From a virus: a stretch of 21,588 nucleotides of DNA. Position 1 is the first letter of the stretch. Every line of letters begins with the position of its first letter. Below are positions 312-16,261 of this stretch, one piece after another. Both the position numbers and the translations under genes were made by a program. The stretch spans positions 1 to 21,588 of IMG/VR virus record IMGVR_UViG_3300037635_002677, one strand, 5' to 3'. Below the pieces are notes generated by a model. That model saw only the letters and a list, made by a program, of their open reading frames with translations, was not told the DNA's origin and ran no database searches.

Positions 312-1125
312 CTTCGTAGATTTCCTTTACAAGTTGTTGTGTTTTCAACACAGTCATGATGACATTCTCACTGATTGTTTCTTTCGAAAAATCTTTTAGG
401 CGCTGTACGATTTGATTGGTTTTCTCAAGCATGACAGAATCATCTTTTATTTCATCTACTTTGGTTGCTTCATCTAATTTATTCTTTAGGCGGGCTATTT
501 CATCGTTTAAGTATATTTTTAATTCTATTGAGTTGTCAGTAAAAGAAGAAATATAATGAGTCAATAACGTTTTTTGTTCGTCTAACAGACCATTTTCATA
601 CTTTTCATTAAATTTATTAACAAATGATTTATAAACAACGTTGTCTACTTTTCTATTATCAGTTTCTTCTGGTTCACTCCCGGTCATGTTCTCAATTATT
701 TTATTCTCAAGAATAACTCTTTCTTTCGGGGAAGTAGTATTAAACATTTTACTAATTGTAGCTAGAGCTTTGTAGTTTGGAACAAAATTATTAAATACAG
801 AAGGCGAGATATTCTTGTTAACATCGTTAATAACTTCGGTTTGTTGTGCGAATAGTGCGTCAGGATCAATCATTCTTTTAGATAACGAAGCTTCTTTTAT
901 AATTTTTTCACTAATTTCGTTATCTAGGCCTTGATTTTCATATAGCGAGCGATAGCATTCTAAGTCTCTTTTAAGAAGAGAATCGGCACTAAAGTGTTCT
1001 CTAATAAGATCCACAACCTTTTTGCTCCTTTCGTTTTCATTTTTTAAGACAGCAACTGTTGCTTCCTTTATCAATGCCTCGTAAACAAACGCGGTGTTAC
1101 GTTTTTTGTTATGTTTAGCTTTCAT
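301..1125 (-). CDS. Hypothetical helical protein downstream of portal
   Basis: A 274-residue, highly charged, mostly helical protein with no signal peptide or membrane segment. It starts with a very basic stretch (MKAKHNKKRN). The last 100 residues are rich in Lys, Glu and Asn and probably coiled. The start overlaps the portal stop by 11 bases and is preceded by GGAG. Position after terminase and portal matches the slot occupied in T4 by small prohead core genes (67, 68) and the protease and scaffold (21, 22). A helical, charged composition would fit a core or scaffold-associated protein. That is only positional inference, as I see no protease catalytic motif and no family signature. Length and composition suggest a conserved phage protein of unknown function. 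Confidence 0.8.
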   Translation of the reverse strand: MKAKHNKKRNTAFVYEALIKEATVAVLKNENERSKKVVDLIREHFSADSLLKRDLECYRSLYENQGLDNEISEKIIKEASLSKRMIDPDALFAQQTEVINDVNKNISPSVFNNFVPNYKALATISKMFNTTSPKERVILENKIIENMTGSEPEETDNRKVDNVVYKSFVNKFNEKYENGLLDEQKTLLTHYISSFTDNSIELKIYLNDEIARLKNKLDEATKVDEIKDDSVMLEKTNQIVQRLKDFSKETISENVIMTVLKTQQLVKEIYEDVG

Positions 1126-3121
1126 CTTTTTGCTCCGTTAATGTATCTTTTTTCTTTTCTAAATCTTCAAGAAGACTTGTTATTGAATTGTTAACTTGTA
1201 GAAGTTTTTGTTCTTCGTCTTGTTCTCTCAATGAATAACTAGGCTCGTTATCTTGATAAACACTTTCAGTAATGCCGCGACCAAGCGATCTTAACTCTGA
1301 AGCACCTAAATTATTAGTGCGATAAGTGTTTGTTTCTGGTGTCGCGATACTTGCGTAATTTCTTGTGCGTGCACCAGCAGGGCGAGAATCAGTTTTTACC
1401 GGATGATAGACTTTTCCTCTTGAGCCAGGTGTGAGTCTGGGTGCGTTTCTGGTCCCGGGAGGAGCAGCCAGCAACGAAGAATCATCAGCCTTATCCGCGT
1501 CAGCAGCAGGTGCAGCAGCATCACCGCCAAGGTCAAGACCACCGGGTTCGCCACCGGGGGCAGCGGGTGGAGTATCAGCACCCAAGTCTAAACCGCCTCC
1601 GGGTGTGCTTGCTCCCCCGCCAAGGTCAAGACCACTACCTCCACCAGCGCCGCCGGCTTGGGCTTCAGCAACACTTTGAAGAGCAGCATCCTGCTTACGA
1701 TCATAAAACATCTCTCTCTGGCAACGTATAAATTCTTCGTGGGACATATTGAAAATATTTTCGGTAACCCAACGGCGTGAAAAGTACCCTTCGGTTGCGG
1801 TACCCGCAATATCAAACTTGGCTTTCCAATGTTCAATCTCTTGAAGCTCAGCAATTTTGGATGGATTGTTCAAGGAAAGTTTGAAGTTAATCAGATCATC
1901 GCCGCGGAAACCAAGAGTGTAAAGATGGATAATACCAATCTTCTCAAGTTCATGTATAACAGTTCTTTGCAACCTTTGAACAGTTCGTGCAAAGCGAATA
2001 TCTTTTTGAGCTAATGTAGTTTTATCTTCGGTGGCGCCTTCGCCCATAGAGAGATACGACTGCGGCACTTTTAATGCTGAGAATAATTTATCTCTTAAAT
2101 ATTTGATGTCATCAATTTCGGTAGTATTTGTGCCGCCGGCTATATTTTGAATGTCGGTGGCAGAACCAGCACGCACAGGAATATAATAATCTTCTTCAAT
2201 TGATAAAGGATTATAGCGAAGGTCTACACGGCCGGTATCTTTGTTGACAATAGAGTGGCGTTTAAGTTGTGATACGATCTTTTGCATATATCCCTCAACA
2301 TCTTGAGGTGGAATAGCTCCAACGTCAATTTTGAATACACGACGTTCAGAAGAGCGCACAACACGATAAGCCATCATTGCGTCTTCCATAAGGGTCAGCT
2401 GCCTCCAGATGCGCCGGGCCGGCTCTAACACCGAGGTACCGTATGGAGAATATTTATCATTACCTAAAATACGGAAATGAGCGACCTGCCAGTTTTCAAA
2501 AGTCATGCCGGCTGAGTTCCATTGATATTGAACATAGTTAGGGTTTGTCGCGTCTAAACCTTCAAGTCTCTCTACATCTTGCAGAGGTAATGGTAATGTG
2601 GATTGAACACCCATCTTGTCATCTATATCGAGATAAAGCATAAAGTCACCATACTTGCACATCGTGCGACACCAACCAAAAAGGTTGTATTCTATATTTA
2701 AGACATTATGATATAACAAATCAAGGACTGCTTTGATTTCTTCATTAGAACACTTAATGTTCAACATTGGACGCAAAGCCGAAAATGTCGTCATTTCATC
2801 CGCATAAATGTCAAGCGATGATGCAATCTCTGGCATATATTCCATTTGGTCAAAATCAATGTAACGCTCACCGCGCCGTTGATTTCCAATAGCGTTTGCC
2901 GCGATAGTATCTAAAGGGTTGTAAGTTTGTTTCTTAAACTGTTGACCCGAGGCAGATTTGAATCTAGATGAAAATTTATCTAAATGTTGTCTACGAATTT
3001 TACGACCTGACTGCGAACGATAGTTTACAATCGGTCCTGAAAAAAGACGTGTTAATCTTTTAAATAATTCTGATTCTTGATTTACTGGGTTTTTACCGTT
3101 TCTTGGGTTTCTTGGGGCCAT
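1115..3121 (-). CDS. Portal protein (T4 gp20-like)
   Basis: Portal vertex protein: a dodecameric ring at one capsid vertex through which DNA is packaged and ejected, and the docking site for terminase. The 668 residues contain the T4 gp20-like core. The segment around residues 257-300 (RSSERRVFKIDVG, then a Gly-Tyr-Met-containing helix and the turn VNKDTGRVD) is typical of this family. It is followed by an Asp-rich region ending with KVPQSYLSMGEG at 351-362, which corresponds to the portal wing/stem region. The basic N-terminus (residues 1-65) is common for portals. T4 gp20 is about 520 residues; the extra length here is a Gly/Ala/Pro-rich insert (about 488-560) containing three GLDLG repeats, then a charged tail. 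The gene lies 8 bases after terminase, the usual partner. Confidence 0.93.
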   Translation of the reverse strand: MAPRNPRNGKNPVNQESELFKRLTRLFSGPIVNYRSQSGRKIRRQHLDKFSSRFKSASGQQFKKQTYNPLDTIAANAIGNQRRGERYIDFDQMEYMPEIASSLDIYADEMTTFSALRPMLNIKCSNEEIKAVLDLLYHNVLNIEYNLFGWCRTMCKYGDFMLYLDIDDKMGVQSTLPLPLQDVERLEGLDATNPNYVQYQWNSAGMTFENWQVAHFRILGNDKYSPYGTSVLEPARRIWRQLTLMEDAMMAYRVVRSSERRVFKIDVGAIPPQDVEGYMQKIVSQLKRHSIVNKDTGRVDLRYNPLSIEEDYYIPVRAGSATDIQNIAGGTNTTEIDDIKYLRDKLFSALKVPQSYLSMGEGATEDKTTLAQKDIRFARTVQRLQRTVIHELEKIGIIHLYTLGFRGDDLINFKLSLNNPSKIAELQEIEHWKAKFDIAGTATEGYFSRRWVTENIFNMSHEEFIRCQREMFYDRKQDAALQSVAEAQAGGAGGGSGLDLGGGASTPGGGLDLGADTPPAAPGGEPGGLDLGGDAAAPAADADKADDSSLLAAPPGTRNAPRLTPGSRGKVYHPVKTDSRPAGARTRNYASIATPETNTYRTNNLGASELRSLGRGITESVYQDNEPSYSLREQDEEQKLLQVNNSITSLLEDLEKKKDTLTEQKDES
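1524..1635. repeat. Short GC-rich repeats inside portal gene
   Basis: The 19-base word CCGCCAAGGTCAAGACCAC occurs at 1524-1542 and again at 1617-1635, a spacing of 93 bases, with a more diverged copy between them near 1584-1605. On the coding strand the three copies encode the repeated peptide GLDLG in a Gly/Ala/Pro-rich linker of the portal protein. The block 1440-1680 is clearly richer in G+C than the AT-rich sequence on both sides. Confidence 0.8.
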
Positions 3122-3129
3122 TTATTTTC

Positions 3130-4713
3130 TCACTTTATAATCCACATATATTCTTTGTAAAGGTTCTCTGCATCGGACATTTTATCCATTATGCCATCTT
3201 CTTTATAACCAATTTGTCCTTTTATTTTTGTGTCAAAACTGGTTCTAGAAGTTATTATAGCATCTACGAAAGCCTTCTTGTAGTTCAAATCTCTTTGATT
3301 TGTCTGCAATGCTGTGTCTCTGACCCAACAAGCAATCGCGAGCGCCATAACTAAATCATCATTGTATCCTTTTAATGCTTGGGGTTTTCCATTTGTCCAA
3401 ATAAATGTTCGCAATTCATTTGCCAAACGAGACGAATATGTAGTAATTAGTTTGTTTCTTATAAACTCTTCTAATTTAGCAACAACCAGTGGACGCGTTT
3501 TTGATGAGGTGGTGAATCCAGGGACAGCAGAACTTCTGTGTTCGGCCATATGTTGTTCAATATATTCATGGGTAGACTTTACAGAATAATAAATATTTGG
3601 GTAAGCATAGTCAATAAGCTTATCTAGAACTGTGTATCCAATGCTGTTGTTTTCTATCACCACCATAGCATTTCCATACTCTCTTCCAATTTGGTTCAAC
3701 ATGTTGGCATACAGGTCAGGGGTTGGTTTGCCTTGATATTCGCCTATTATCTGCATAGTTTCTAATTTAATAATGTGAAATGTTGAATAGTCTGCCCCAT
3801 CTCCGCGGGCGACGTCGGCAGTTAACAGATAACTACACGATGGGTCATGTTCTTCCCAAATCCAAAAATTTCTATCAAAAGCAGTACGATATTTAGGTTC
3901 AGTAACGTTACCACCAATCCACTCTAGAGCGTCAGGATCAATTACAGTCTCACCTGAAGTATTGAAATTACACTCCAGTTCTTGAGCTATTTGGCGACGA
4001 GACATATTTCGGGTTTCTTTTTTAAACCATTCTTCATTTCGTTCAGGGTGGACATCCCACATCAAGGTCGTTAATTTAAAATTATTTTCTTTTGTTTCGG
4101 CGCCAATACAAGTTTTATGAAACCAGTTACCGACACCATTGGGTGTAGAAATAGCGATGCATCGCCCACCAGTTGACAACGTAGGGTACAGACCAGTCCA
4201 TAAGTCTTCAAGCCCATCAATATGGGCGGCCTCGTCAAGAACCAGCAGTGACAAGGCTTCTGAACGGCCGGCGTCACCAGAGGTCGAAGCAGCTTTGATT
4301 GTTGAACCGTTAGAAAGCTCAAACGAGGTGCGGTTATCAGTAGAGATAGATGCAATCCTAATCCAGTCTGGTAAGTTTTTCATTATGCTCTTGACCTTAC
4401 GGACAAGGTTTCCGGCAGTTTCAAACTTTGTAGCCATGACAAGAATAGACTTGTCGCGGTGGAACAGCATCATCCACACAATATAGCCAGCCGTTAAGGT
4501 TGATATACCAAGTTGGCGGCCTTTATTAATTACGTTGAAGCGGTAATCATTAAAATCATCTAACAACAAATCTTGATAATCAAAAGTATTAAAAAGGATT
4601 AGCCCGTGCATCGGGTGTGATATACGGGCATAAGTTTTAAGGAAATAGGAGGGGTCTTTACCACACTTAACTACTTCTTTTAATATCTCTTTCTTTGTTA
4701 ATTTGAAGCTCAT
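3130..4713 (-). CDS. Terminase large subunit (T4 gp17-like)
   Basis: DNA-packaging motor ATPase and headful nuclease acting at the portal. The 527 residues show the expected two domains. In the ATPase, a Walker A-type loop KGRQLGIS lies at about 64-71, Walker B LLVLDEAA at 156-163 with the catalytic Glu at 161, and the coupling motif IST at 188-190. In the RNase H-like nuclease, the acidic triad is D300 (TADVARGDGAD), E354 (VIENN) and the DD pair at 452-453 (YNDDLVMALA). All key residues are present and the length is close to that of the family (T4 gp17 is about 610). The start overlaps the upstream stop as ATGA. No small terminase is recognisable next to it; the tagged 253-residue protein just upstream occupies that place but shows no resemblance I can see. 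Confidence 0.97.
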   Translation of the reverse strand: MSFKLTKKEILKEVVKCGKDPSYFLKTYARISHPMHGLILFNTFDYQDLLLDDFNDYRFNVINKGRQLGISTLTAGYIVWMMLFHRDKSILVMATKFETAGNLVRKVKSIMKNLPDWIRIASISTDNRTSFELSNGSTIKAASTSGDAGRSEALSLLVLDEAAHIDGLEDLWTGLYPTLSTGGRCIAISTPNGVGNWFHKTCIGAETKENNFKLTTLMWDVHPERNEEWFKKETRNMSRRQIAQELECNFNTSGETVIDPDALEWIGGNVTEPKYRTAFDRNFWIWEEHDPSCSYLLTADVARGDGADYSTFHIIKLETMQIIGEYQGKPTPDLYANMLNQIGREYGNAMVVIENNSIGYTVLDKLIDYAYPNIYYSVKSTHEYIEQHMAEHRSSAVPGFTTSSKTRPLVVAKLEEFIRNKLITTYSSRLANELRTFIWTNGKPQALKGYNDDLVMALAIACWVRDTALQTNQRDLNYKKAFVDAIITSRTSFDTKIKGQIGYKEDGIMDKMSDAENLYKEYMWIIK

Positions 4714-5471
4714 ACATCTTTTAAGTTTTCGTTAGCTCGGCCAAGAGAATCTCCCGTGTCTAAACCATCTAAAATATTAGCGACATTATCAAGAGCGCTT
4801 TGTAATTCTGGATGGTGCTTGACTGCATCTTCAAGGGCGTGATATGTTGTCATTAACTTTTCATAATCGCTGGGGGCTTCTTTGGCTGGGGGCGTCCCCC
4901 CTTTCATTACGTCGTAAGATGCTTCAAAATCTTGGTAATCATCAAACACTTCTTTAATCATGGCTTTAACTTCTTCAAATCCTATTCTGCGACGTGGCGG
5001 CTCAACAGAGCCTGGAGCCAACTGTTCTAAAACATTAGTGAATAAATCTACCATTTCTTCTTCGGACATGCCTTGGACAAGTCCAATAACTTGCTCGCGT
5101 ACATCTATTTCTTGATTACCTGAAGGTCCGAGTGAGGCTTCATCCTCTACATCATACGCCCCTTCTTCGTCAGGCACGTCATTGTACTGAGGCATATCAT
5201 CCGTAGGAAGAGGCGTTGTTTCAGCAGAACGATCAACCTTGGAATCATATGCTGGTGTTTGCTTTCCGCGCTTGTAACTACCAGGACCATATTCACGTTC
5301 AAGCCACTCTGGCTTGGGGCCCTCTTTCTTAATCCAAGCTACAAACTCATCAGCCTTTTCTTGAGTCATAGCTTCGTCAAGATTAAATTCTTTAGCATAT
5401 TCTTCTAAAGCTTCTTCTTTGGCGTATTCTTCTAGAATGATCTGCTTAAGTCGTGGTTCAGTAATCTGCAC
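4710..5471 (-). CDS. Tagged acidic protein, GTG start (N-terminal MxIT..LKQIILEE)
   Basis: 253 residues from a GTG at 5471. A longer reading from an ATG at 5543 is possible, but it would overlap the upstream gene by 71 bases. The GTG lies one base after the upstream TAA, has an AAGGAA ribosome site 7 bases before it, and makes the protein begin MQITEPRLKQIILEEY, matching the N-terminal tag of five other proteins in this window. The tag is followed by a repeated LEEYAKE (residues 13-19 and 22-28) and by NLDEA (30-34), which resembles a T4 prohead-protease site. The middle (about 50-130) is acidic, Pro/Gly-rich and probably disordered. The C-terminal third is helical. It is immediately upstream of terminase. 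Function unknown; a virion-interior or scaffold-associated protein is the inference. Confidence 0.8.
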   Translation of the reverse strand: MQITEPRLKQIILEEYAKEEALEEYAKEFNLDEAMTQEKADEFVAWIKKEGPKPEWLEREYGPGSYKRGKQTPAYDSKVDRSAETTPLPTDDMPQYNDVPDEEGAYDVEDEASLGPSGNQEIDVREQVIGLVQGMSEEEMVDLFTNVLEQLAPGSVEPPRRRIGFEEVKAMIKEVFDDYQDFEASYDVMKGGTPPAKEAPSDYEKLMTTYHALEDAVKHHPELQSALDNVANILDGLDTGDSLGRANENLKDV

Positions 5472-5472
5472 T

Positions 5473-6021
5473 TTACGATTCCTTTTTTCTAGAATCGTTA
5501 TCTGGACGTTTGCCGCCTTTACCGTTCCAACCACCTTGGTCAAGGAACTTTTTAAAGCTGTCTTCTAATCGGTCTTCAGAAGGTACATTATGCGTCATGT
5601 CTTCAGATAGGCCACCAATCTTGTAGTGCATTGCTGCAGTTACCCAGCTTCTAACTCTAGAGCTGTTTTCAACACGAACATCTATCTCGCCCTGCTTTGT
5701 GAGTGTAACACCAGAGCCAGTAATCTTTTTATATTCTTTCTTCAAAAACTTAACGACATCGGCAATTCTCTGCTCTACTTCTTGTTCAAAACCATTAGCA
5801 TATACTTCGCGTAACTGTACTTCTGAATGATATCCGAGACACATCATATTACCATTGAAGTTAATATTAAATCCATCCATGACTCTCTTGTCGATTAAAG
5901 GACGACCTTCTTCGCGTTGAAGCCCAACCTTCACGGCTTCTCCATTTTCGTCTAATGCTCCATCATAGCCATTAGCTGCGGCCTGCGATAAGCCTTGTAT
6001 AATTTCGTAAACTGTTGCCAT
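5473..6021 (-). CDS. Hypothetical protein, possible virion component
   Basis: 182 residues starting MATVYEIIQGLSQAAANGYDG. No signal peptide or membrane segment. The middle (residues 60-120) alternates hydrophobic and charged residues as in a mixed alpha/beta fold, with a helix EVEQRIADVVKFLKKEYKKI at about 80-99. The C-terminus (from about 165) is a Gly/Lys/Asp-rich tail. The start overlaps the preceding stop as TAATG and the ribosome site is AAAGGAGA. It sits between two tagged proteins upstream of terminase, so a role in the virion or its assembly is plausible from context only. I know of similar sequences in uncultured marine phages from memory, without an assigned function. Confidence 0.8.
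   Translation of the reverse strand: MATVYEIIQGLSQAAANGYDGALDENGEAVKVGLQREEGRPLIDKRVMDGFNINFNGNMMCLGYHSEVQLREVYANGFEQEVEQRIADVVKFLKKEYKKITGSGVTLTKQGEIDVRVENSSRVRSWVTAAMHYKIGGLSEDMTHNVPSEDRLEDSFKKFLDQGGWNGKGGKRPDNDSRKKES
5479..5484 (-). promoter_or_regulatory. Ribosome binding site deciding the GTG start at 5471
   Basis: On the minus strand AAGGAA ends 7 bases before the GTG at 5471. Together with the TAA of the preceding gene ending one base before that GTG, it favours the short reading with the shared N-terminal tag over the ATG at 5543. Confidence 0.7.
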
Positions 6022-6626
6022 TACTGGTCTCCTTTCGTTTTCTTGTACTGTAAATAGTGTTTAACTGAAGAAAGGTAATCAGATGCTTTAGTGATTTTAG
6101 CTTGCACCCAAGCGTCTAATTCTTCCCCGTCTTGAATCATTTGTTCCAATTCTGATGCATATTCTGCTGTCCGGTATAATTGAGACTTGGCCATCTGTGA
6201 TTCATCTTGGTCATAACCACTACTCATTTGTGGAGATGGTTGTGCGGCTGGGAGTTGCGGGTCGCCACAGCCCTCAGTCTGCACTTGTGGTTTGGCCGCG
6301 GCCACTGCCGACGCCTTTGATGCAGTACCGGCTTTTTGCCCGGTCATCCTTGTTCTATTTTTCTTGACGTCCAGACCGGCCGGTTCAGACTTTAACCTAG
6401 TTTGTAAAATATTGAAAACTTTTTGAATAATAGGGCGTTTCGTATTAAGATCAAGACCTGGCTGCGCAGCTAAATCGAGTATGAACTGATTAATTTGAGA
6501 AGCAATACCTTGCTCTGCTGAGTTGACATCACCTTTTTCAGTGGGCGGTGGAGTTTCTGTGGTTTGTGGGTTCTCATCCAGAGCCTCCAATATTGCTTGT
6601 CTTATATCATTTTTAGTTATCTTCAT
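6021..6626 (-). CDS. Tagged protein with disordered middle and helical C-terminus
   Basis: 201 residues beginning MKITKNDIRQAILEALDENP, the most divergent of the six N-terminal tags. ILE-A at 12-15 fits the T4 prohead-protease pattern. After the tag come a Thr/Pro-rich spacer (about 20-32), a helical segment (40-80), a Lys/Ala/Gln/Pro-rich low-complexity linker (about 88-135), and a helical C-terminus containing ELDAWVQAKITKASDYLSSV (169-188). I associate that helical segment, from memory, with uncharacterised marine phage proteins. The tag-coding DNA overlaps the last codons of the preceding gene by 14 bases, so its first residues share bases with another protein. The ribosome site AAAAGGATGG lies within that gene. 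No enzymatic motif is visible. Confidence 0.82.
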   Translation of the reverse strand: MKITKNDIRQAILEALDENPQTTETPPPTEKGDVNSAEQGIASQINQFILDLAAQPGLDLNTKRPIIQKVFNILQTRLKSEPAGLDVKKNRTRMTGQKAGTASKASAVAAAKPQVQTEGCGDPQLPAAQPSPQMSSGYDQDESQMAKSQLYRTAEYASELEQMIQDGEELDAWVQAKITKASDYLSSVKHYLQYKKTKGDQ

Positions 6627-8284: not shown

Positions 8285-8287
8285 TAT

Positions 8288-8330
8288 ATTATTCCTTTTA
8301 AATTGCTAATCCATTCATACTTAGTAGCGC
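8288..8330. repeat. 43-bp direct repeat, copy A
   Basis: Matches 8642-8684 at 40 of 43 positions (differences at 8302, 8319 and 8327). On the minus strand it reads as the last codons of the tubulin-like gene (AILSMNGLA-type end and TAA) plus its downstream ribosome site AAGGAATAAT. Here it lies at the 3' end of the tagged gene 8321-8638 and runs up to the start of the next gene. In the tubulin frame this copy would still read ALLSMNGLAI and stop, so it looks like a leftover gene end. Confidence 0.88.
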
Positions 8331-8638
8331 TCGTATTCGTTCTCTTCAGCGCGGTTTTCGTATCGCCTATAAATCTTATCGTGATTTTCAGGGTTTTCTC
8401 TCAATTCATCTACATAAGCCTTTTCCTGGGCATCGGTTAGACCCATTGGAGGATCGTTAAAATCGTTGTTTTTTAAGAAGGCTTCGTCCTCCTTAGTCAT
8501 ACCAGCGGGTTGGACTTGGAAATCGGGTCGGCGAGGCTGTGCAGCATCACGCTTTGATTGAGAGTGCGATTTTCCACCGTAGTAGTCTCTAAGCTCTTCT
8601 TTGATGATCTGCTTAAGTTGTTGTTTTGTAATTTTCAT
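8321..8638 (-). CDS. Small tagged protein between direct repeats
   Basis: 105 residues beginning MKITKQQLKQIIKEELRDYY, a clear copy of the shared N-terminal tag. The rest is very hydrophilic: a Ser/Gln/Arg-rich segment (about 22-48) and a charged Glu/Arg/Asn/Tyr-rich C-terminus with no obvious fold. Ribosome site AAGGAATAAT. The gene plus one copy of a 43-bp repeat forms a 354-bp unit that appears to have been inserted after the tubulin-like gene. Its stop codon lies inside repeat copy A. No T4-type E-A/G cleavage site is visible after the tag, unlike in three other tagged proteins. Function unknown. Confidence 0.78.
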   Translation of the reverse strand: MKITKQQLKQIIKEELRDYYGGKSHSQSKRDAAQPRRPDFQVQPAGMTKEDEAFLKNNDFNDPPMGLTDAQEKAYVDELRENPENHDKIYRRYENRAEENEYERY

Positions 8639-8641
8639 TTC

Positions 8642-8684
8642 ATTATTCCTTTTAAGTTGCTAATCCATTCATGCTTAGTATCGC
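8642..8684. repeat. 43-bp direct repeat, copy B
   Basis: Partner of 8288-8330, offset 354 bases. It covers the true 3' end of the tubulin-like gene (the codons for AILSMNGLAT and the TAA at 8652-8654) and the ribosome site of the following tagged gene. Confidence 0.88.
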
Positions 8685-9794
8685 AATCAATCCGGGCACA
8701 TTCTTTCTGACATAAACGCCAGAGAAAAGTGTCTCGCATCGACCGCCGACATAAGCGATTGCCGACTCAATATTCTTACTGACTTTAGGGTCAGCCACCA
8801 TCTCTTCCGAGACGACTAAAACCAATGAACCAGCCGCTGCCTTTCCCTTCGGTGGGGGGCACGCTGACCTGTTCATGCAGTTATGAAGGATCACCGATCC
8901 AAGCTTAGCAGTATTTGGATCTTTTATCATAGTTGAGCCTAAGAAGGCACGACCGTCATTGCCCAAACATGTTTCCAAATCCTTGCTGTCAAAAGATTGG
9001 ATCGGTGAATCCTCGGTGGAGAGCTTTAACACTTGGGCAAGTGACTTAGCAAAAGTTGTGTTGGCGACTGGGTACATGCCAAGCATGCCGATTCTGCCGC
9101 GCAGTAAGCGTGTAGCTCGTTCGTTATCAAGAACGATGTGCGGGTGCTTGGCGACATCGTTAGCCAGCGTCAACGCATTACGAGCGATTGTGGGGTTAAG
9201 GTTTTCTTGTGCCGTGGGCCAAGAGACTATGTAAATGACTTTGCCAGTCGACTGCACAGAGCGCATGTAGCGCTCAAAGACAGGGTGCAGAGCGGTAACA
9301 CTACTACCGGTACCACCGCCACCGCCAGCAAGGACGAATAACCAATCAACTTTACCGAGCTTGATACGCAGGGCATCTTCAACAATCGCGCCATTTTGAC
9401 TTAAAACCTCTTTTCCATAGTCTACGTTTTTTCCAATCCCGTCTGAATCGGGAATGAGGACAACGTGTTCCTCTTCTACATTCTTTGGAATGTCTTTACC
9501 TGTTGAATTTACGAGTAGCGTCTTATTGAAACCTAGCTCAATAAACGCATTCGCCATTTTATTGCCTCCACCGCCGACACCGACAAAACCAACATTGATA
9601 GATGAGGGTGCTGTGTTCTCAGGGAGTAAATCTTCATCAGAGTATTCCATCTGTAATCCGAAGTCCTCAACCATGCCGAAATCTTCTGCATCTACTTCTT
9701 CGTGGTAACTGTCTTTTTCCTGCGCAAACGCGGGAGGTGGTTCTGCGGGAGGCAGAAAATCAAATTCGTTTTTATCGTCGTTTTCGTCTGACAT
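8652..9794 (-). CDS. FtsZ/tubulin-family GTPase
   Basis: 380-residue cytoskeletal GTPase. Residues 1-65 are an acidic Pro-containing extension. Residues 66-80 (INVGFVGVGGGGNKM) match the FtsZ T1 loop. The tubulin signature loop is AGGGGGTGSS at 156-165. DNERATRLL at 223-231 corresponds to the FtsZ T5/H5 region. SFDSKDL at 267-273 fits the FtsZ T7 loop (NVDFADV), keeping the two catalytic Asp (269, 272) but with Ser for Asn. The protein ends just after the second domain, with no FtsZ C-terminal peptide. Phage tubulins (PhuZ, TubZ types) centre or move DNA or replication compartments. This one is closer to FtsZ in its motifs, so effects on host division are also possible. It is flanked on both sides by small tagged proteins. 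Ribosome site AAGGAATAA. Confidence 0.88.
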   Translation of the reverse strand: MSDENDDKNEFDFLPPAEPPPAFAQEKDSYHEEVDAEDFGMVEDFGLQMEYSDEDLLPENTAPSSINVGFVGVGGGGNKMANAFIELGFNKTLLVNSTGKDIPKNVEEEHVVLIPDSDGIGKNVDYGKEVLSQNGAIVEDALRIKLGKVDWLFVLAGGGGGTGSSVTALHPVFERYMRSVQSTGKVIYIVSWPTAQENLNPTIARNALTLANDVAKHPHIVLDNERATRLLRGRIGMLGMYPVANTTFAKSLAQVLKLSTEDSPIQSFDSKDLETCLGNDGRAFLGSTMIKDPNTAKLGSVILHNCMNRSACPPPKGKAAAGSLVLVVSEEMVADPKVSKNIESAIAYVGGRCETLFSGVYVRKNVPGLIAILSMNGLAT

Positions 9795-9807: not shown

Positions 9808-10149
9808 TTATTTGCGCGGAAAAGCGCTTTGAAATCTCTCGGAAGGCGGGACATCCTTTGCAAACTTAGAGTATCCAGAGCGCTTTGGTTTTTTATTCTT
9901 AGGGCCTGCTGCGTCTATAGCCTGTCGAAGCCCCTGTAAGATAGGCTTCAGGCGCGGATGAAGGGCTTGTGGAGTATCAACATCGTCTGAACGATTATCA
10001 AAGTCATCATATACTTTTCTGTCTTCCGGACTTAGAGCGTCTAAATATTCTTGTTTAGCTGCATGGTAGGCTTTACTTCCAGCTTCATCTAATACAGCCT
10101 CGATCTCTTCTTTTATAAGTTGTTTGAGTTGTGATTTTGTGATTTTCAT
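9808..10149 (-). CDS. Small tagged protein
   Basis: 113 residues starting MKITKSQLKQLIKEEIEAVL, nearly identical in the tag to the gene just upstream. LDE-A at 20-23 matches the T4 prohead-protease pattern and would remove the tag exactly. The remainder is soluble, Asp/Arg/Pro-rich, with a helix (about 25-35) and a basic C-terminal third (KKPKRSGYSK and later), which could bind nucleic acid. The start overlaps the upstream stop as TAATG. Function unknown; a packaged basic peptide is an inference from tag, possible cleavage site and charge. Confidence 0.8.
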   Translation of the reverse strand: MKITKSQLKQLIKEEIEAVLDEAGSKAYHAAKQEYLDALSPEDRKVYDDFDNRSDDVDTPQALHPRLKPILQGLRQAIDAAGPKNKKPKRSGYSKFAKDVPPSERFQSAFPRK

Positions 10150-10463
10150 TACGCCATACCTAAATCGGCTTTAATTTGTTCAAGATTTTTAGGTAGACGA
10201 CCTGTATCATTTGAAACCTCGCCGGTTGGTTTGAATTGACCGCGGTCACCACCAACTCTGTACATAAATTGAGAACCGCCTGCTCCGCCGGACTTCATCG
10301 CAAATTCAATTTTGCCTTGACGAATTTGATTACCAAACATTTTAAAAATTTCAGGGAAATACATGTCCATCGTATTAGCATCATAAAATTGCGTGCGCTC
10401 GTTTAAAACACCTTCAATTTCTTCTTTAATGATTTGTTTAAGTTGCGACTTGGTAATTTTCAT
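10149..10463 (-). CDS. Small tagged protein
   Basis: 104 residues starting MKITKSQLKQIIKEEIEGVL. After the tag: a helix around MYFPEIFKMFGNQIRQGKIE (34-53), a Gly-rich stretch with SGGAGGSQFMYRVGG (58-72), and a polar C-terminus. No enzyme motif. Its tag DNA differs from that of the adjacent gene at most third codon positions while the amino acids are kept. Ribosome site AGGAG precedes the ATG by about 9 bases, just after the nuclease-ATPase gene. Confidence 0.8.
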   Translation of the reverse strand: MKITKSQLKQIIKEEIEGVLNERTQFYDANTMDMYFPEIFKMFGNQIRQGKIEFAMKSGGAGGSQFMYRVGGDRGQFKPTGEVSNDTGRLPKNLEQIKADLGMA

Positions 10464-10474
10464 TTTGTAATCTC

Positions 10475-13400
10475 CTATTGATTTACTCTTGCGTATCCGT
10501 CTTTCTTTTCAATCACGATTTGCATGTCAACACAATCTTTGAGTGAATCAAGGTGAGAGATCAACAAAACGTTCTTAAAATACACTTTAATTAGTTCCAA
10601 GATCCGAATAAAACCTTCCATATTTTCTTCGTCCAAAGCGGTGCCGGGTTCATCAAGGATAAATAAGTCTGATTTTGGTAGTGAGGATACCGATAAGAGA
10701 GCCAAACGAATGGCCATGGCGGCCATTGTTTTCTCTGCTCCTGAAGCCATCTCAATAGGGCGCTCATCATACTGTGGGTGTTTAATGAAAATATCAAATT
10801 TATTTCCAAGACTATCAAAAAATATTTCAAAATCTACGATGTTGGCTAATACTTTCGCGACCTCTTCATTAATTACCGGCATTTTCTTTTTAATAATATC
10901 GTAAGCAATTCCGTTAGAGTGCATACATTGCATAAAAAGATCGTAAGCAGAAAACTCTTTTTGAAGCTTTATAAGCTCTGCTTGTTGCTTTTGTGTGTCC
11001 TCAAGCTGCTGTTCATAAGAGCCGACGCGCTTATACAAACTCAACGTTTTTTCCTTTTCCATTTCTATAGTTTTCTTAATCTTTGTTACTAAAATCTCAT
11101 GCTCTTCTTTATTGTTTAATAGTTTTTCTAGATTTTCAATTGCTTCTTTATTTTGCTCATAAGCTATCTTTTTATCCATTAGCTGTGAAACCGAATTATT
11201 AATTCTTTCTAAAGCAATATTGTTTCTCTCAATAGACATCTTTAAGTCTCTAATCAAAAATTCAGTTTCTTGCTTCTTTTCATTTAACTTTTTGTACTTT
11301 TCAATGTGATCTCTTACAATATCGGGCGCCAATGTAGAAAGGGCGTCCTCTAGTGAATTAATTTCAGTTTCAAACTCGGGAATTGTGGCCACAGCAACAT
11401 GCGCATCCTTAATAAATTTACATGTAGGAAACGATGTGCCACACGGGATATCGTCTAGAAGTTTTTCCTTACCAATAGCAGAATCAAGCAAGGCAGCAAA
11501 ATCTGATAGTTTATTATTTATCTCTGAAATTTCACCTTGTTGGGTCAGAAGGGAATCGTAGTCCAATTGGCCCATTAATACCATTATTTTATCATACCGA
11601 GATTTTTCATTCTTAAGCGTGGAAGCATCTTCAATAACTTTGTTTGATAACAAACTAATTTGTTTTTGATTCTTTTCAAGGGTTCGATAAATGTCAAAAA
11701 TATCAATCGCTTCCGCAGGTATATCAGAAATTTGCTTATCTATTTCAACAAGTTTGTTGAGTTTGTCTTGGAGAAGGGCTTCATTAGAAAACACGCTCTT
11801 CTCATGTGCTGCGATTTCGGTTCTACAGGTTTTTAGGTTTATTTCAGACTGTTCAAGCTCTTGTTTATAATCCCTGTCTCCTAATTTTTTTAGGTAAACT
11901 TTTGCTTCAATTGACTCTTCTTTTGCTAATTTAAACTTCTGATCAAATATTTCTAAGTCCAAGAATTTAGCAATAATTTCTTTACGACGAGTTGAACCTT
12001 CATCAATAAATGTTAGCGAGCCATGTTGGGAAGCCAGTGATGATACATTAAAATCCTCTATAGTCCCGAAGTGTTTCCGAATGTTAGCATCAGTGTTATT
12101 TCGTGTAAGGCCATTCAAAGATGTCGTTTCACCAGTAGCATAATTAAGAACTTCAAAATTTAATTCAGTTTTAGCTTCTTGTGTCTTCTCACCTTTTAAA
12201 GTTTTAATATATTTTGTGGCCCTTCGTTCAATTGTATACAGGTTATCGTTAATTTGTATTTCTAATTTGCCGCGGCCAACATCTTTATTCTGATTGATTA
12301 CATTAAGATTTTTGCGTTCGTTTTTAGAAGTTGTGTTAAACATTGTCCACAGAGCAGCGTCAACGACCGAGCTTTTACCTGAGAAGTTTTTACCGAAAAT
12401 ACCAACGATACCATCAAGCGTATCAAAGCATACATTGTTGCCTTCACCATAATTAAATAAATTATCGAACTCAAAGTTTATTAGTTTCCAATTTATATTA
12501 CGTGATACATCTTCTTCCTTCTCAATAATTACATTGTATTTTCTATTTAATTCGTACACGCTTTCTAAGATATCATCTGAAATGTGGTAATCTTTTAAGT
12601 ATTCGCTGATAAGCTCTTCTTGTACTTTAATATCTCGCAGGTTTTCAGTTTTAAGGTCATCCGTTAAATCTTCTACATTGCCGCGCTGGCCAGAGGCTCT
12701 ATTAAGAAATGAGATACTTTCAGGTTTAAACCTGTGCTTTGCAATATCTACTGCGCGCTTCATTACATCTAGCGGTAAGTTGTTATTACTAACTAATCTT
12801 AAGCGAGCACCCGTAGGTATTTGGGTGTTCTTTGGCATACGGCCCTTGCGTGTAAGCTCTATTGTAATAAACGCTTTGGGGTTTATAAGAGATACATGCC
12901 GGGTATTAAAATTATTTTTGTCTTCAATATCCCAAATCAAATAACCCTTATCATTGCTTTCACCATGATTTTGCTGTACCAATGAGCCGGGGTATCTTGC
13001 TTTGCCATCATTGTCAATCTTTTGATTAGTCTTGTGGATATCACCCAAGAGTGCGTAATCATACTTCTCAAGGGTCTCCATATCAATATCGCCGTGAGTC
13101 ATCATCCAGCCACTGTCAGTGACTGAACCGACGACTGAACCATGATAGAGAGCAATGTTTGTACGATCTTCTGGTAAGTTTTCTTGCCAGTTTTCTGGAT
13201 CCACAATAGACAATACATGCAAATCAACCCCATCCGCTACTTCAATAACTTCTGAATACTTATGGAAATGCAAGTTAGGGTGTTTCAGATTGTCAACAAT
13301 CGGACTAATCGCATCTAGTCGACCGCTGTTCTTTAAATTCATGTCATGGTTGCCGAGAATCATATAATAAGGTGCAATGTCTGCTAGATTAACAAACAAA

Positions 13401-13588
13401 TCACTCATCATACGAATTGCCTCGGGACTTAAATCAAGTTTTGTGTGGAAGGTATCACCAGTATTGACTATGATATCTGGCTTTTCTTCCTTCAGCTTTT
13501 CATAAAGCTGCTCAAATACTGCACGGTATTCCTTGTGGTACTTTAATTTTCGGACATGGATATCCGATACGTGTGCTATTTTGATCAC
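10475..13588 (-). CDS. Mre11-Rad50 (gp47-gp46, SbcD-SbcC) fusion protein
   Basis: A single 1037-residue chain combining two proteins that are normally separate. The N-terminal 300 residues are an Mre11/SbcD/gp47 nuclease with all phosphoesterase motifs: D9-x-H11, GD at 44-45, GNHD at 79-82, H149 and GDIH at 182-185. A helical linker (about 310-360) matches where Mre11 binds Rad50. From about 366 it is Rad50/SbcC/gp46: Walker A FGKNFSGKSS at 398-407, a coiled coil with a hook C716-x6-C723, ABC signature SGAEK at 949-953, and Walker B LFILDEP near 975-981. The complex resects DNA ends for recombination-dependent replication. T4 encodes gp47 (about 340 residues) and gp46 (about 560) as adjacent genes in this order. 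Start is GTG with AGGAG five bases upstream. Confidence 0.95.
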   Translation of the reverse strand: MIKIAHVSDIHVRKLKYHKEYRAVFEQLYEKLKEEKPDIIVNTGDTFHTKLDLSPEAIRMMSDLFVNLADIAPYYMILGNHDMNLKNSGRLDAISPIVDNLKHPNLHFHKYSEVIEVADGVDLHVLSIVDPENWQENLPEDRTNIALYHGSVVGSVTDSGWMMTHGDIDMETLEKYDYALLGDIHKTNQKIDNDGKARYPGSLVQQNHGESNDKGYLIWDIEDKNNFNTRHVSLINPKAFITIELTRKGRMPKNTQIPTGARLRLVSNNNLPLDVMKRAVDIAKHRFKPESISFLNRASGQRGNVEDLTDDLKTENLRDIKVQEELISEYLKDYHISDDILESVYELNRKYNVIIEKEEDVSRNINWKLINFEFDNLFNYGEGNNVCFDTLDGIVGIFGKNFSGKSSVVDAALWTMFNTTSKNERKNLNVINQNKDVGRGKLEIQINDNLYTIERRATKYIKTLKGEKTQEAKTELNFEVLNYATGETTSLNGLTRNNTDANIRKHFGTIEDFNVSSLASQHGSLTFIDEGSTRRKEIIAKFLDLEIFDQKFKLAKEESIEAKVYLKKLGDRDYKQELEQSEINLKTCRTEIAAHEKSVFSNEALLQDKLNKLVEIDKQISDIPAEAIDIFDIYRTLEKNQKQISLLSNKVIEDASTLKNEKSRYDKIMVLMGQLDYDSLLTQQGEISEINNKLSDFAALLDSAIGKEKLLDDIPCGTSFPTCKFIKDAHVAVATIPEFETEINSLEDALSTLAPDIVRDHIEKYKKLNEKKQETEFLIRDLKMSIERNNIALERINNSVSQLMDKKIAYEQNKEAIENLEKLLNNKEEHEILVTKIKKTIEMEKEKTLSLYKRVGSYEQQLEDTQKQQAELIKLQKEFSAYDLFMQCMHSNGIAYDIIKKKMPVINEEVAKVLANIVDFEIFFDSLGNKFDIFIKHPQYDERPIEMASGAEKTMAAMAIRLALLSVSSLPKSDLFILDEPGTALDEENMEGFIRILELIKVYFKNVLLISHLDSLKDCVDMQIVIEKKDGYARVNQ

Positions 13589-13772: not shown

Positions 13773-14669
13773 TTACTTGCCGATGTCTTGACCAGTAATT
13801 TTGTTAAACATTTGCATGTAATATTGAGAAGCAGACATGCCTGCATTTGGAAGTTCAGGATTGACCATATCTAATAGAGGGTAAGATTCATATCCGAAAG
13901 ATTCACCCTTGCCTTTAAGGAATTTGATACCACCTTGAGATGCTTTCTGCATCTGTGCTTGGTTCCCACCAATATCGCTTTTACTTACTTTTGCTGGATT
14001 AAAGTCTGGTAAGTTATACAGTTGTTTATACTGCTGCGCATATTTTTCTTTGGACATGTCAGCTCCTCTAACCGTATTAGGATCAATGCCTGGTTTTAAA
14101 TCTGCCTTGTTGGTTACGCCCTTGGCAATTTGGTTTTTAATGTCTTGCTGTAGTTTCAGTAAAACGCCGTACTCTTGTGAAAACATTTGTGTACGGCCGC
14201 CATCGTAGTCTTGAAAAATAGGAAAGTTTTGCATCTGGGAAACTCTATCACTAAAATCTTGACCTGCTTCACCGCCTACAGAACCCTTATCAGCATCCGG
14301 ATTAATATTCCACATAAAGTTGGCCGATGAGCCTAACAGATCATTAACTGATTCTAATGCATGGCCAGACAATTGCTTTTCAGCTTCTACACTAGCTTCA
14401 GCGGCGGCGCGTTCTGCGGCTTTAATATCAGATAAATCGGAACTTTCGGATCCCAGAACACCCAATAAGCCACCAACAACTGCTAAAGGGAGTAACCCTT
14501 TTTTGATTCTAGAAACCAAGTCTCGCCGGCGGTCTTTTTTGTATGCTTGTAGATCTTCATCATTTTCAATAAGAAATTTGTCTAATTCTTCTTCAATTAC
14601 TTGTTCTAAAAAATTATCAACTATTTCTTCTAAAATAATTTGTTTAAGTTTTGCTTCTGTGATGTTCAC
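13773..14669 (-). CDS. Tagged protein with one membrane segment, GTG start
   Basis: 298 residues starting at a GTG one base after the primase TAG. The N-terminus MNITEAKLKQIILEEIVDNF matches the shared tag and continues with a second similar helix (EQVIEEELDKFLIE, 22-35), as if the tag were duplicated. A basic patch KKDRRRD (44-50) precedes a hydrophobic segment at about 58-73 (LLPLAVVGGLLGVLG), probably one membrane span. An Ala/Glu-rich helix follows (82-100), then a Gln/Asn/Gly-rich soluble C-terminus without known motifs. The mix of tag, membrane segment and soluble tail could fit an internal virion protein inserted into the membrane at ejection, but that is speculation. It ends before the promoter region at 13754. 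Confidence 0.8.
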   Translation of the reverse strand: MNITEAKLKQIILEEIVDNFLEQVIEEELDKFLIENDEDLQAYKKDRRRDLVSRIKKGLLPLAVVGGLLGVLGSESSDLSDIKAAERAAAEASVEAEKQLSGHALESVNDLLGSSANFMWNINPDADKGSVGGEAGQDFSDRVSQMQNFPIFQDYDGGRTQMFSQEYGVLLKLQQDIKNQIAKGVTNKADLKPGIDPNTVRGADMSKEKYAQQYKQLYNLPDFNPAKVSKSDIGGNQAQMQKASQGGIKFLKGKGESFGYESYPLLDMVNPELPNAGMSASQYYMQMFNKITGQDIGK

Positions 14670-15688: not shown

Positions 15689-16261
15689 TTATAGAGTTTG
15701 CAAAGCTTCTATAATTTGCGCCTTGGTCGACTTTGTATTGACCGGTAAGCCTTGTGCTTTAGCAACATTGAGAAGTTCAGCCTTCTTCATGCTTGCACTC
15801 CAGTCAGCCATAGTTACGTCACTTTGCTCGTCAGTTCCGTGAATCTCCATAAGGCTGATTTCAAAAGTCAATTGCTCACCAGCTAGTGGGTGATTTAAAT
15901 TCAATGTGACTGTATCTTCGCTTACCTCGTGAATTTTTGCAAGAAATTGCCCCTCTGGACTGTTGCCTTGCACCAACTCTCCAATCACAAACTCAAAGTC
16001 TGGTCCGAATGCTTCCTTCGGGGCAGGCTTAAAAGCTTCAGGGTTGATAGGCCCGTATGCCTCATCAGGCTCAAGAGTAATACTCTTAGTCTCACCAATA
16101 GTCATGCCGACTACCGCGTTGTTGAATCCTTCGATCATGGCTCCGGTACCAAGTTCAAAATCCAAAGTTTGGCCGCGGGTGCGGGAATTGTCAAATTCGG
16201 TACCATCTATTAAGGTACCTTTGTAATGAACACTTACAGTGTGTCCGTTTGTTGCTTTCAT
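15689..16261 (-). CDS. FKBP/SlyD-type prolyl isomerase with C-terminal SAP-like domain
   Basis: 190 residues. Residues 1-68 and about 119-140 form the FKBP fold (VHYKGTLIDGTEFDNS; LGTGAMIEGFNNAVVGM; EPDEAYG). Residues 69-118 are the insert-in-flap chaperone domain typical of SlyD-like proteins. Peptidyl-prolyl isomerases of this class speed protein folding. Residues about 152-190 (ADWSASMKKAELLNVAKAQG, then LPVNTKSTKAQIIEAL) resemble a SAP/Rho-N-type helix-extended-helix motif that usually binds nucleic acid. SlyD's own metal-binding His-rich tail is absent. The gene has its own promoter, a strong AGGAGA ribosome site and its own terminator, so it is separately controlled. It could help fold virion proteins; the SAP-like tail hints at acting near DNA or RNA. 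Confidence 0.92.
   Translation of the reverse strand: MKATNGHTVSVHYKGTLIDGTEFDNSRTRGQTLDFELGTGAMIEGFNNAVVGMTIGETKSITLEPDEAYGPINPEAFKPAPKEAFGPDFEFVIGELVQGNSPEGQFLAKIHEVSEDTVTLNLNHPLAGEQLTFEISLMEIHGTDEQSDVTMADWSASMKKAELLNVAKAQGLPVNTKSTKAQIIEALQTL

Follow-up and report, generated by a model that had tools for sequence, protein, structure and literature searches.

Tagged genes in the window and their context

The window, that is, the whole stretch of DNA analyzed here, is a 21.6-kb IMG/VR virus contig that carries, both on the minus strand, the genes for a T4-type (gp17-like) large terminase (positions 3130–4713; phrog_2, E = 1.4e-54) and a gp20-like portal protein (1115–3121; phrog_213, E = 1.2e-68). 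The gp17-like terminase identifies the virus as a far-T4 myovirus, with the nearest terminase among phage records, at 47% identity, found in Flavobacterium phage immuto. A 194-kb relative, referred to here as G001, shares about 97% DNA identity with the window over most of its length, and when the window terminase and portal were considered along with the G001 protease, scaffold and major capsid protein (MCP), homologs of gp17, gp20, gp21, gp22, and gp23 were found in conserved order, as in the immuto-like far-T4 myoviruses. Furthermore, a 78%-identical terminase is encoded on a contig assigned to a Flavobacteriaceae MAG, and this contig bears both classes of the tags described below. Immuto and this contig hint at Bacteroidota hosts, with MAG binning being weak evidence.

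Six genes in the window, all on the minus strand, start with versions of the same N-terminal peptide, with the consensus MKITKxQLKQIIKEExxxVLNE (class 1 tag). Two of these are adjacent: gene A (9808–10149, 113 amino acids; first 20 residues MKITKSQLKQLIKEEIEAVL, tag score 46.7), with tag residues 1–22 encoded at 10149–10084 and a predicted cut after VLDE22, before AGSK, and gene B (10149–10463, 104 amino acids; first 20 residues MKITKSQLKQIIKEEIEGVL), with the tag encoded at 10463–10398 and a predicted cut after VLNE22, before RTQF. The original prediction was confined to the interval 9808–10463 and described both genes correctly, but this interval covers only two of the six tagged genes. The third canonical tagged gene (8321–8638, 105 amino acids; tag MKITKQQLKQIIKEELRDYYGG) contains no L-x-E within residues 16–24, and G001 has additional tagged genes at this place. 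The gene at 13773–14669 (298 amino acids, GTG start; tag MNITEAKLKQIILEEIVDNFLEQ) lies between an SbcCD-like gene and a primase gene and has homologs in loci L083, L118, and L053. The remaining two are divergent, namely, the gene at 6021–6626 (201 amino acids; tag MKITKNDIRQAILEALDE, with NPQT following the predicted cut), relatives of which were found in 62 loci, and the gene at 4710–5471 (253 amino acids; tag MQITEPRLKQIILEEYAKEEALEEYAKEFNLDE), which immediately precedes the terminase gene. This last tagged gene likely starts with GTG at 5471; the mechanical ORF start at 5543 appears too early because the orthologs begin at the same place as the preferred start.

The G001 ortholog of gene B is 97% identical. 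At the position of gene A in this 97%-identical relative (g110_481), the tag is retained and the part of the protein behind it (hereinafter, cargo) is largely different. A swap of the gene A cargo breaking exactly at the tag end was considered and rejected: in the base-level alignment, differences, most of them silent, extend into the tag, and therefore the whole gene has been replaced between the window and G001. Window positions 8285–8651 and G001 positions 191850–193183, whose flanks are about 97% identical, differ by two to three tagged genes, and a partial copy of the FtsZ gene 3' end lies in front of a tagged gene. This region is a hot spot of cargo turnover.

Among the neighboring genes, all on the minus strand, the one at 8652–9794 encodes an FtsZ/tubulin GTPase homolog (PF00091, 5e-8; PDB FtsZ, 9e-11) that is 93–98% conserved in related viral contigs and is unmatched among 50,697 phage records; we assign it to an undescribed branch of phage tubulins. 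The 1037-amino acid ORF at 10475–13588 is a fusion of an SbcD-like phosphoesterase and an SbcC-like SMC ATPase, unlike T4 gp47 and gp46, which are separate proteins. The gene at 15689–16261 encodes an FKBP-type peptidyl-prolyl isomerase, here in a phage.

A family of N-terminal tags on unrelated proteins

In related viral DNA, we identified 467 tagged ORFs, at least 291 of which have mutually unrelated cargoes, 75–264 residues long (5–95%), with a sharp edge of similarity at residue 22–25. In the first ~160 loci, the tag profile matched 428 ORF starts, as against none of 41,058 starts in which residues 2–15 were shuffled; thus, the likeness of the tags of genes A and B is not due to chance. 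The largest contig sampled (273 kb) carries 23 tags. Conservation is high up to residue 16 and has a small second peak at E22 (0.90 bits), but only about 0.1 bits are left at residue 25. Distinct tag 14-mers are found immediately after the start codon in 240 cases and elsewhere in 17, most of the latter being N-terminal MKK variants that are one residue shorter.

No paper containing class 1 strings was found in the searched literature, and in cultured phages, class 1 was matched only weakly, in LR756508. The class 1 profile matched immuto twice, once well and once marginally, and Mel-JY01 not at all, whereas the MKK variant had no match in cultured phages. The tag DNA pattern was not detected in any of the 84,980 genomes of bacteria and archaea searched, and we accordingly dropped the possibility that the tag belongs to host genes; this search relied on an exact degenerate pattern that misses variants, such as those in the Flavobacteriaceae MAG contig, which was reached via its terminase.

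Selection and silent variation in the tag

As originally claimed, genes A and B have tags that agree at 18 of 20 residues, and the number of shared codons altered at the third base, put at about ten, is exactly ten. The two non-synonymous codons are 11 (L/I) and 18 (A/G), and identity collapses past residue 22. The ten silent differences, among 17 shared non-Met codons, compare with 9.5 ± 2.0 expected if codons were sampled independently at the frequencies used by the closest relative, so that this pair is at silent saturation. Hence, genes A and B bear out the proposal that the tag has not been copied recently as DNA, but this does not extend to the family. Family-wide, silent differences amount to 0.31 within a locus and 0.42 between loci, against the expected 0.54, indicating that many tags were copied as DNA more recently than this pair. 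Moreover, most tags, including those with unrelated cargoes, have position-specific codons in common (CAA for Q7, CAG for Q10, GAA for E14, and GAG for E15), and therefore the tag spreads as DNA, too. Together with the low level of silent differences, these codons show that the tag DNA has a common origin and has often been re-copied, with genes A and B representing an old pair.

Among orthologs with both copies tagged, the tag has a pooled dN/dS of 0.12 and the cargo one of 0.23, in agreement with the proposal that selection preserves the peptide. The corresponding pN/pS is 0.20 [0.16–0.25] in the tag and 0.35 [0.30–0.40] in the cargo, and for paralogous tags with unrelated cargoes within a single genome, it is 0.105 [0.091–0.126]. 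A cruder test without the tag-score filter, blurred by misassigned starts and partial hits, yielded a dN/dS of 0.15 for the tag and 0.22 for the cargo, a difference that is not significant (P = 0.09). The comparison of tag and remainder thus places dN/dS at about 0.1–0.15 in the tag, not near 1, and the tag evolves under purifying selection in the filtered and unfiltered tests alike. That the tag is more conserved than the rest of the protein is clear for diverged orthologs and for paralogs but not for close orthologs, in which the tag and the cargo are equally constrained.

The position-specific codons, together with silent differences below codon-usage saturation and the turnover of cargo genes between genomes that are otherwise 97% identical, would also fit a conserved DNA or RNA element, such as a translation leader, a recombination seam or a promoter, with the peptide as a by-product. 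We consider this extremely improbable given the pN/pS of 0.1 among paralogous tags and the 10 silent vs. 2 amino acid changes in the A/B pair; furthermore, no RNA structure was found over the tag (z = +1.6, +2.2, and −1.1), and, as described below, the tag can be replaced by a different sequence with the same L-x-E end. The codons in common are accounted for by the common ancestry of the tag DNA.

A second, exchangeable tag

By searching for cargo homologs irrespective of their N-termini, we identified another tag, MKxLFENWRKxLNE (class 2), on 77 cargo-distinct proteins. It nearly always begins at residue 1, and its L-x-E ends at residue 14, with E present in 63 of the 77 proteins and N as the middle residue in 37. 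This tag has no match in cultured phages. Sixteen class 2 proteins have a class 1-tagged homolog. In the cleanest of these swaps, the similarity between cargoes begins immediately behind the E that ends each tag, at the predicted cut, as in loci L127 and L086, where KVMNE precedes SMPGMEPYDLS and NKFLKE precedes SPPGMEPYDLS, respectively. Other swaps (for example, L071/L062) lack such an exact junction, the similarity starting either within the last part of the tag or some way beyond it. The substitution of two unrelated peptides on one cargo is best explained if both perform the same job. The original suggestion that the peptide itself is functional is supported by the low dN/dS and, more strongly, by these exchanges.

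The exchanges also bear on the possibility that the tagged genes form one paralogous family in which the N-terminus is a leftover of ancestral homology. Although genes A and B are adjacent and alike only at the N-terminus, and tandem duplication is visible in G001, this explanation is highly improbable because simple decay cannot yield cargo homologs with wholly different tags, and it sits poorly with 291 tagged proteins that have unrelated cargoes and a sharp edge at residue 22–25.

A third N-terminal type, MA(I/R)RKNKKxxDPRYFL(N/D)E, was observed in L109, L145, L006, and L149 and likewise swaps with class 1 on homologous cargo. A cargo domain containing CPxATQDLELNTKNRD recurs behind class 2 tags in L121, L169, and L186.

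Putative cleavage motif, protease, and head genes

Both tags end with L-x-E, frequently L-N-E, which corresponds to the logo of sites cleaved by gp21, the prohead protease of T4. Among 175 non-redundant canonical class 1 tags, [ILMFV]xE is present at residues 16–24 in 79%, compared with 9–13% per later 9-residue window, and the strict [IL]xE in 59%, compared with 3–6%. Exact [IL]xE at residues 20–22 occurs in 66 tags vs. 44.7 ± 3.3 after permutation (maximum 57 in 20,000 permutations). The middle residue of the class 1 motif is N in 26 of 83 cases (background 3%), and the motif is followed by G in 29% (background 7%).

G001 encodes a gp21-like protease (181682–182287; phrog_207, E = 3e-55), and this protease was detected in 24 of the 29 records searched, including all those longer than 112.4 kb; the five others are contigs of 78.9 to 112.4 kb. 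T4-like phages generally encode a gp21-type protease, so that its co-occurrence with the tags is weak evidence. The MCPs of the lineage contain LLRE or LLKE (a near-invariant L-K/R-E) immediately ahead of the mature core, at a place that aligns with the region of the T4 gp23 site. Class 2 tags are present on head-core genes flanking the protease gene, roughly where T4 has the core genes 67 and 68. In G001, seven of the eight class 1 genes lie in a 54-kb head, packaging and tail block comprising 28% of the genome (P = 0.0008, to be read in light of the choice of the block after inspection). A C-terminal sequence, R(M/W)xxLAGI(N/K), is present in the scaffold and in a large class 2-tagged core protein (G001 171560–172939 and 179725–181689; loci L173 and L174), as well as in the L162 scaffold and the immuto scaffold; perhaps, this is a C-terminal docking motif. 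For the class 2 tag and the LAGI motif, the searched literature yielded no relevant paper, only chance string matches.

In our assessment, the tag is most likely a capsid-targeting propeptide, a functional analog of the T4 CTS in a far-T4 marine myovirus lineage. Tagged proteins, most of whose genes lie in the head and packaging block, would be made late. The amphipathic N-terminal helix would bind the prohead core and carry the protein inside, and the gp21-like protease would cut after L-x-E during maturation, around residue 22 in class 1 and at residue 14 in class 2; the end motif, the protease gene and the matching MCP site all point to such cleavage. The mature cargo would then remain in the head and probably be ejected with the DNA. 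Cargoes would be free to change because entry requires only the tag, and the tag would be under purifying selection because its docking and cutting partners are fixed. Docking to the core and presence in the virion are likewise predictions, and no virion proteome of a tagged phage, including immuto, was found in the searched literature. Several observations count against a propeptide: residues 16–24 prolong an amphipathic helix, which alone would yield some L..E patterns; not all swap junctions coincide with the predicted cut; some tagged proteins, such as that encoded at 8321–8638, lack L-x-E at residues 16–24; class 2 genes are also located far from the head block (G001, 79–88 kb); and a few tags are internal or C-terminal, with the class 1 core LKQIIKEE at residue 291 in L109, residue 325 in L127, and residue 382 of 403 in L158.

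Alternatively, the tag could be an uncleaved docking helix for another assembly, such as the tail or baseplate, the filament formed by the FtsZ-like protein encoded next door, or an infection compartment. The amphipathic character of the tag, the location of many tagged genes between head and tail genes, and an FtsZ/tubulin GTPase gene that neighbors tagged genes in the window as well as in 51 of the first loci are all compatible with this role. Nevertheless, we regard it as unlikely: the FtsZ-like protein is unmatched in the same phage records in which LR756508 has 18 tag-like N-termini, and a docking helix gives no reason for the L-N-E end followed by G, for the occurrence of this end in class 2, or for the presence of class 2 tags on protease-flanking genes.

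Scans of class 1 cargoes with Pfam, PHROGs, and PADLOC returned almost nothing, with PADLOC matches at chance level and a single pentapeptide-repeat protein; among class 2 cargoes, a few enzymes were matched (NUDIX, DnaJ, GNAT, and HAD). With the scans nearly empty, cargo function cannot serve as proof of the role of the tag.

Comparison with known systems

In T4, internal proteins are targeted to the prohead core by 10–19-residue N-terminal propeptides that are removed there, and gp21 cleaves head proteins after L/I-x-E (PMC9026906). The marine tags resemble the T4 CTS (IPI, IPII, IPIII, and the Alt propeptide) in being short N-terminal peptides common to different cargo proteins and ending with L/I-x-E (a likeness of motif only), in occurring in genomes with a T4-type head gene set and a gp21-family protease, and in the turnover of cargoes between close relatives (PMC9026906, PMC3012670). 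The class 1 tag is longer, with ~22 residues compared with 10–19, and the marine lineage, unlike T4, employs at least two exchangeable tag classes. Furthermore, up to 11 class 1-like tags are found per lineage contig, or 23 in the 273-kb contig, whereas T4 has a handful of tagged proteins. By inspection, the N-terminus of T4 IPI (MKTFKEFTS...) matches neither tag beyond MK, and the tag search of T4 records returned no match. The marine tags, with a CTS-like function and without T4 sequence, would therefore be a functional analog rather than a homologous member.

In giant phages, head propeptides (of the substrates of SPN3US gp245 and phiKZ gp175) are likewise N-terminal and cut after glutamate during maturation by a gp21-related protease, but most comprise 111–254 residues, with two short ones of 20 and 24, and no large family with one common tag is described (PMC10052503). 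LR756508, a huge uncultured phage (484 kb), has 18 class 1-like N-termini, MKxxExxLRxIIKEE, many near the portal and protease genes; its tag consensus has drifted, and its protease match is split in two inside one frame. As far as the searched literature goes, which includes few subscription journals, the expansion to many cargoes and the interchangeable tag classes are undescribed.

Implications

We lean towards the broader view that, in the evolution of this lineage, head loading expanded into a system with two or more (possibly three) interchangeable labels, in which the tag predicts packaged and ejected proteins and serves as a portable cassette for recruiting cargoes. If the tag is a capsid-targeting propeptide, the proteins that are packaged and probably ejected could be listed from sequence in abundant uncultured phages, and more than 200 cargo families, very few of which match Pfam, could be assigned a location as well as a probable time of action, at the very start of infection. 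The internal proteins of T4 include inhibitors of host defense, and the list of cargoes would therefore be a source of candidate anti-defense proteins. The tags themselves would provide new short labels for loading proteins into phage heads.
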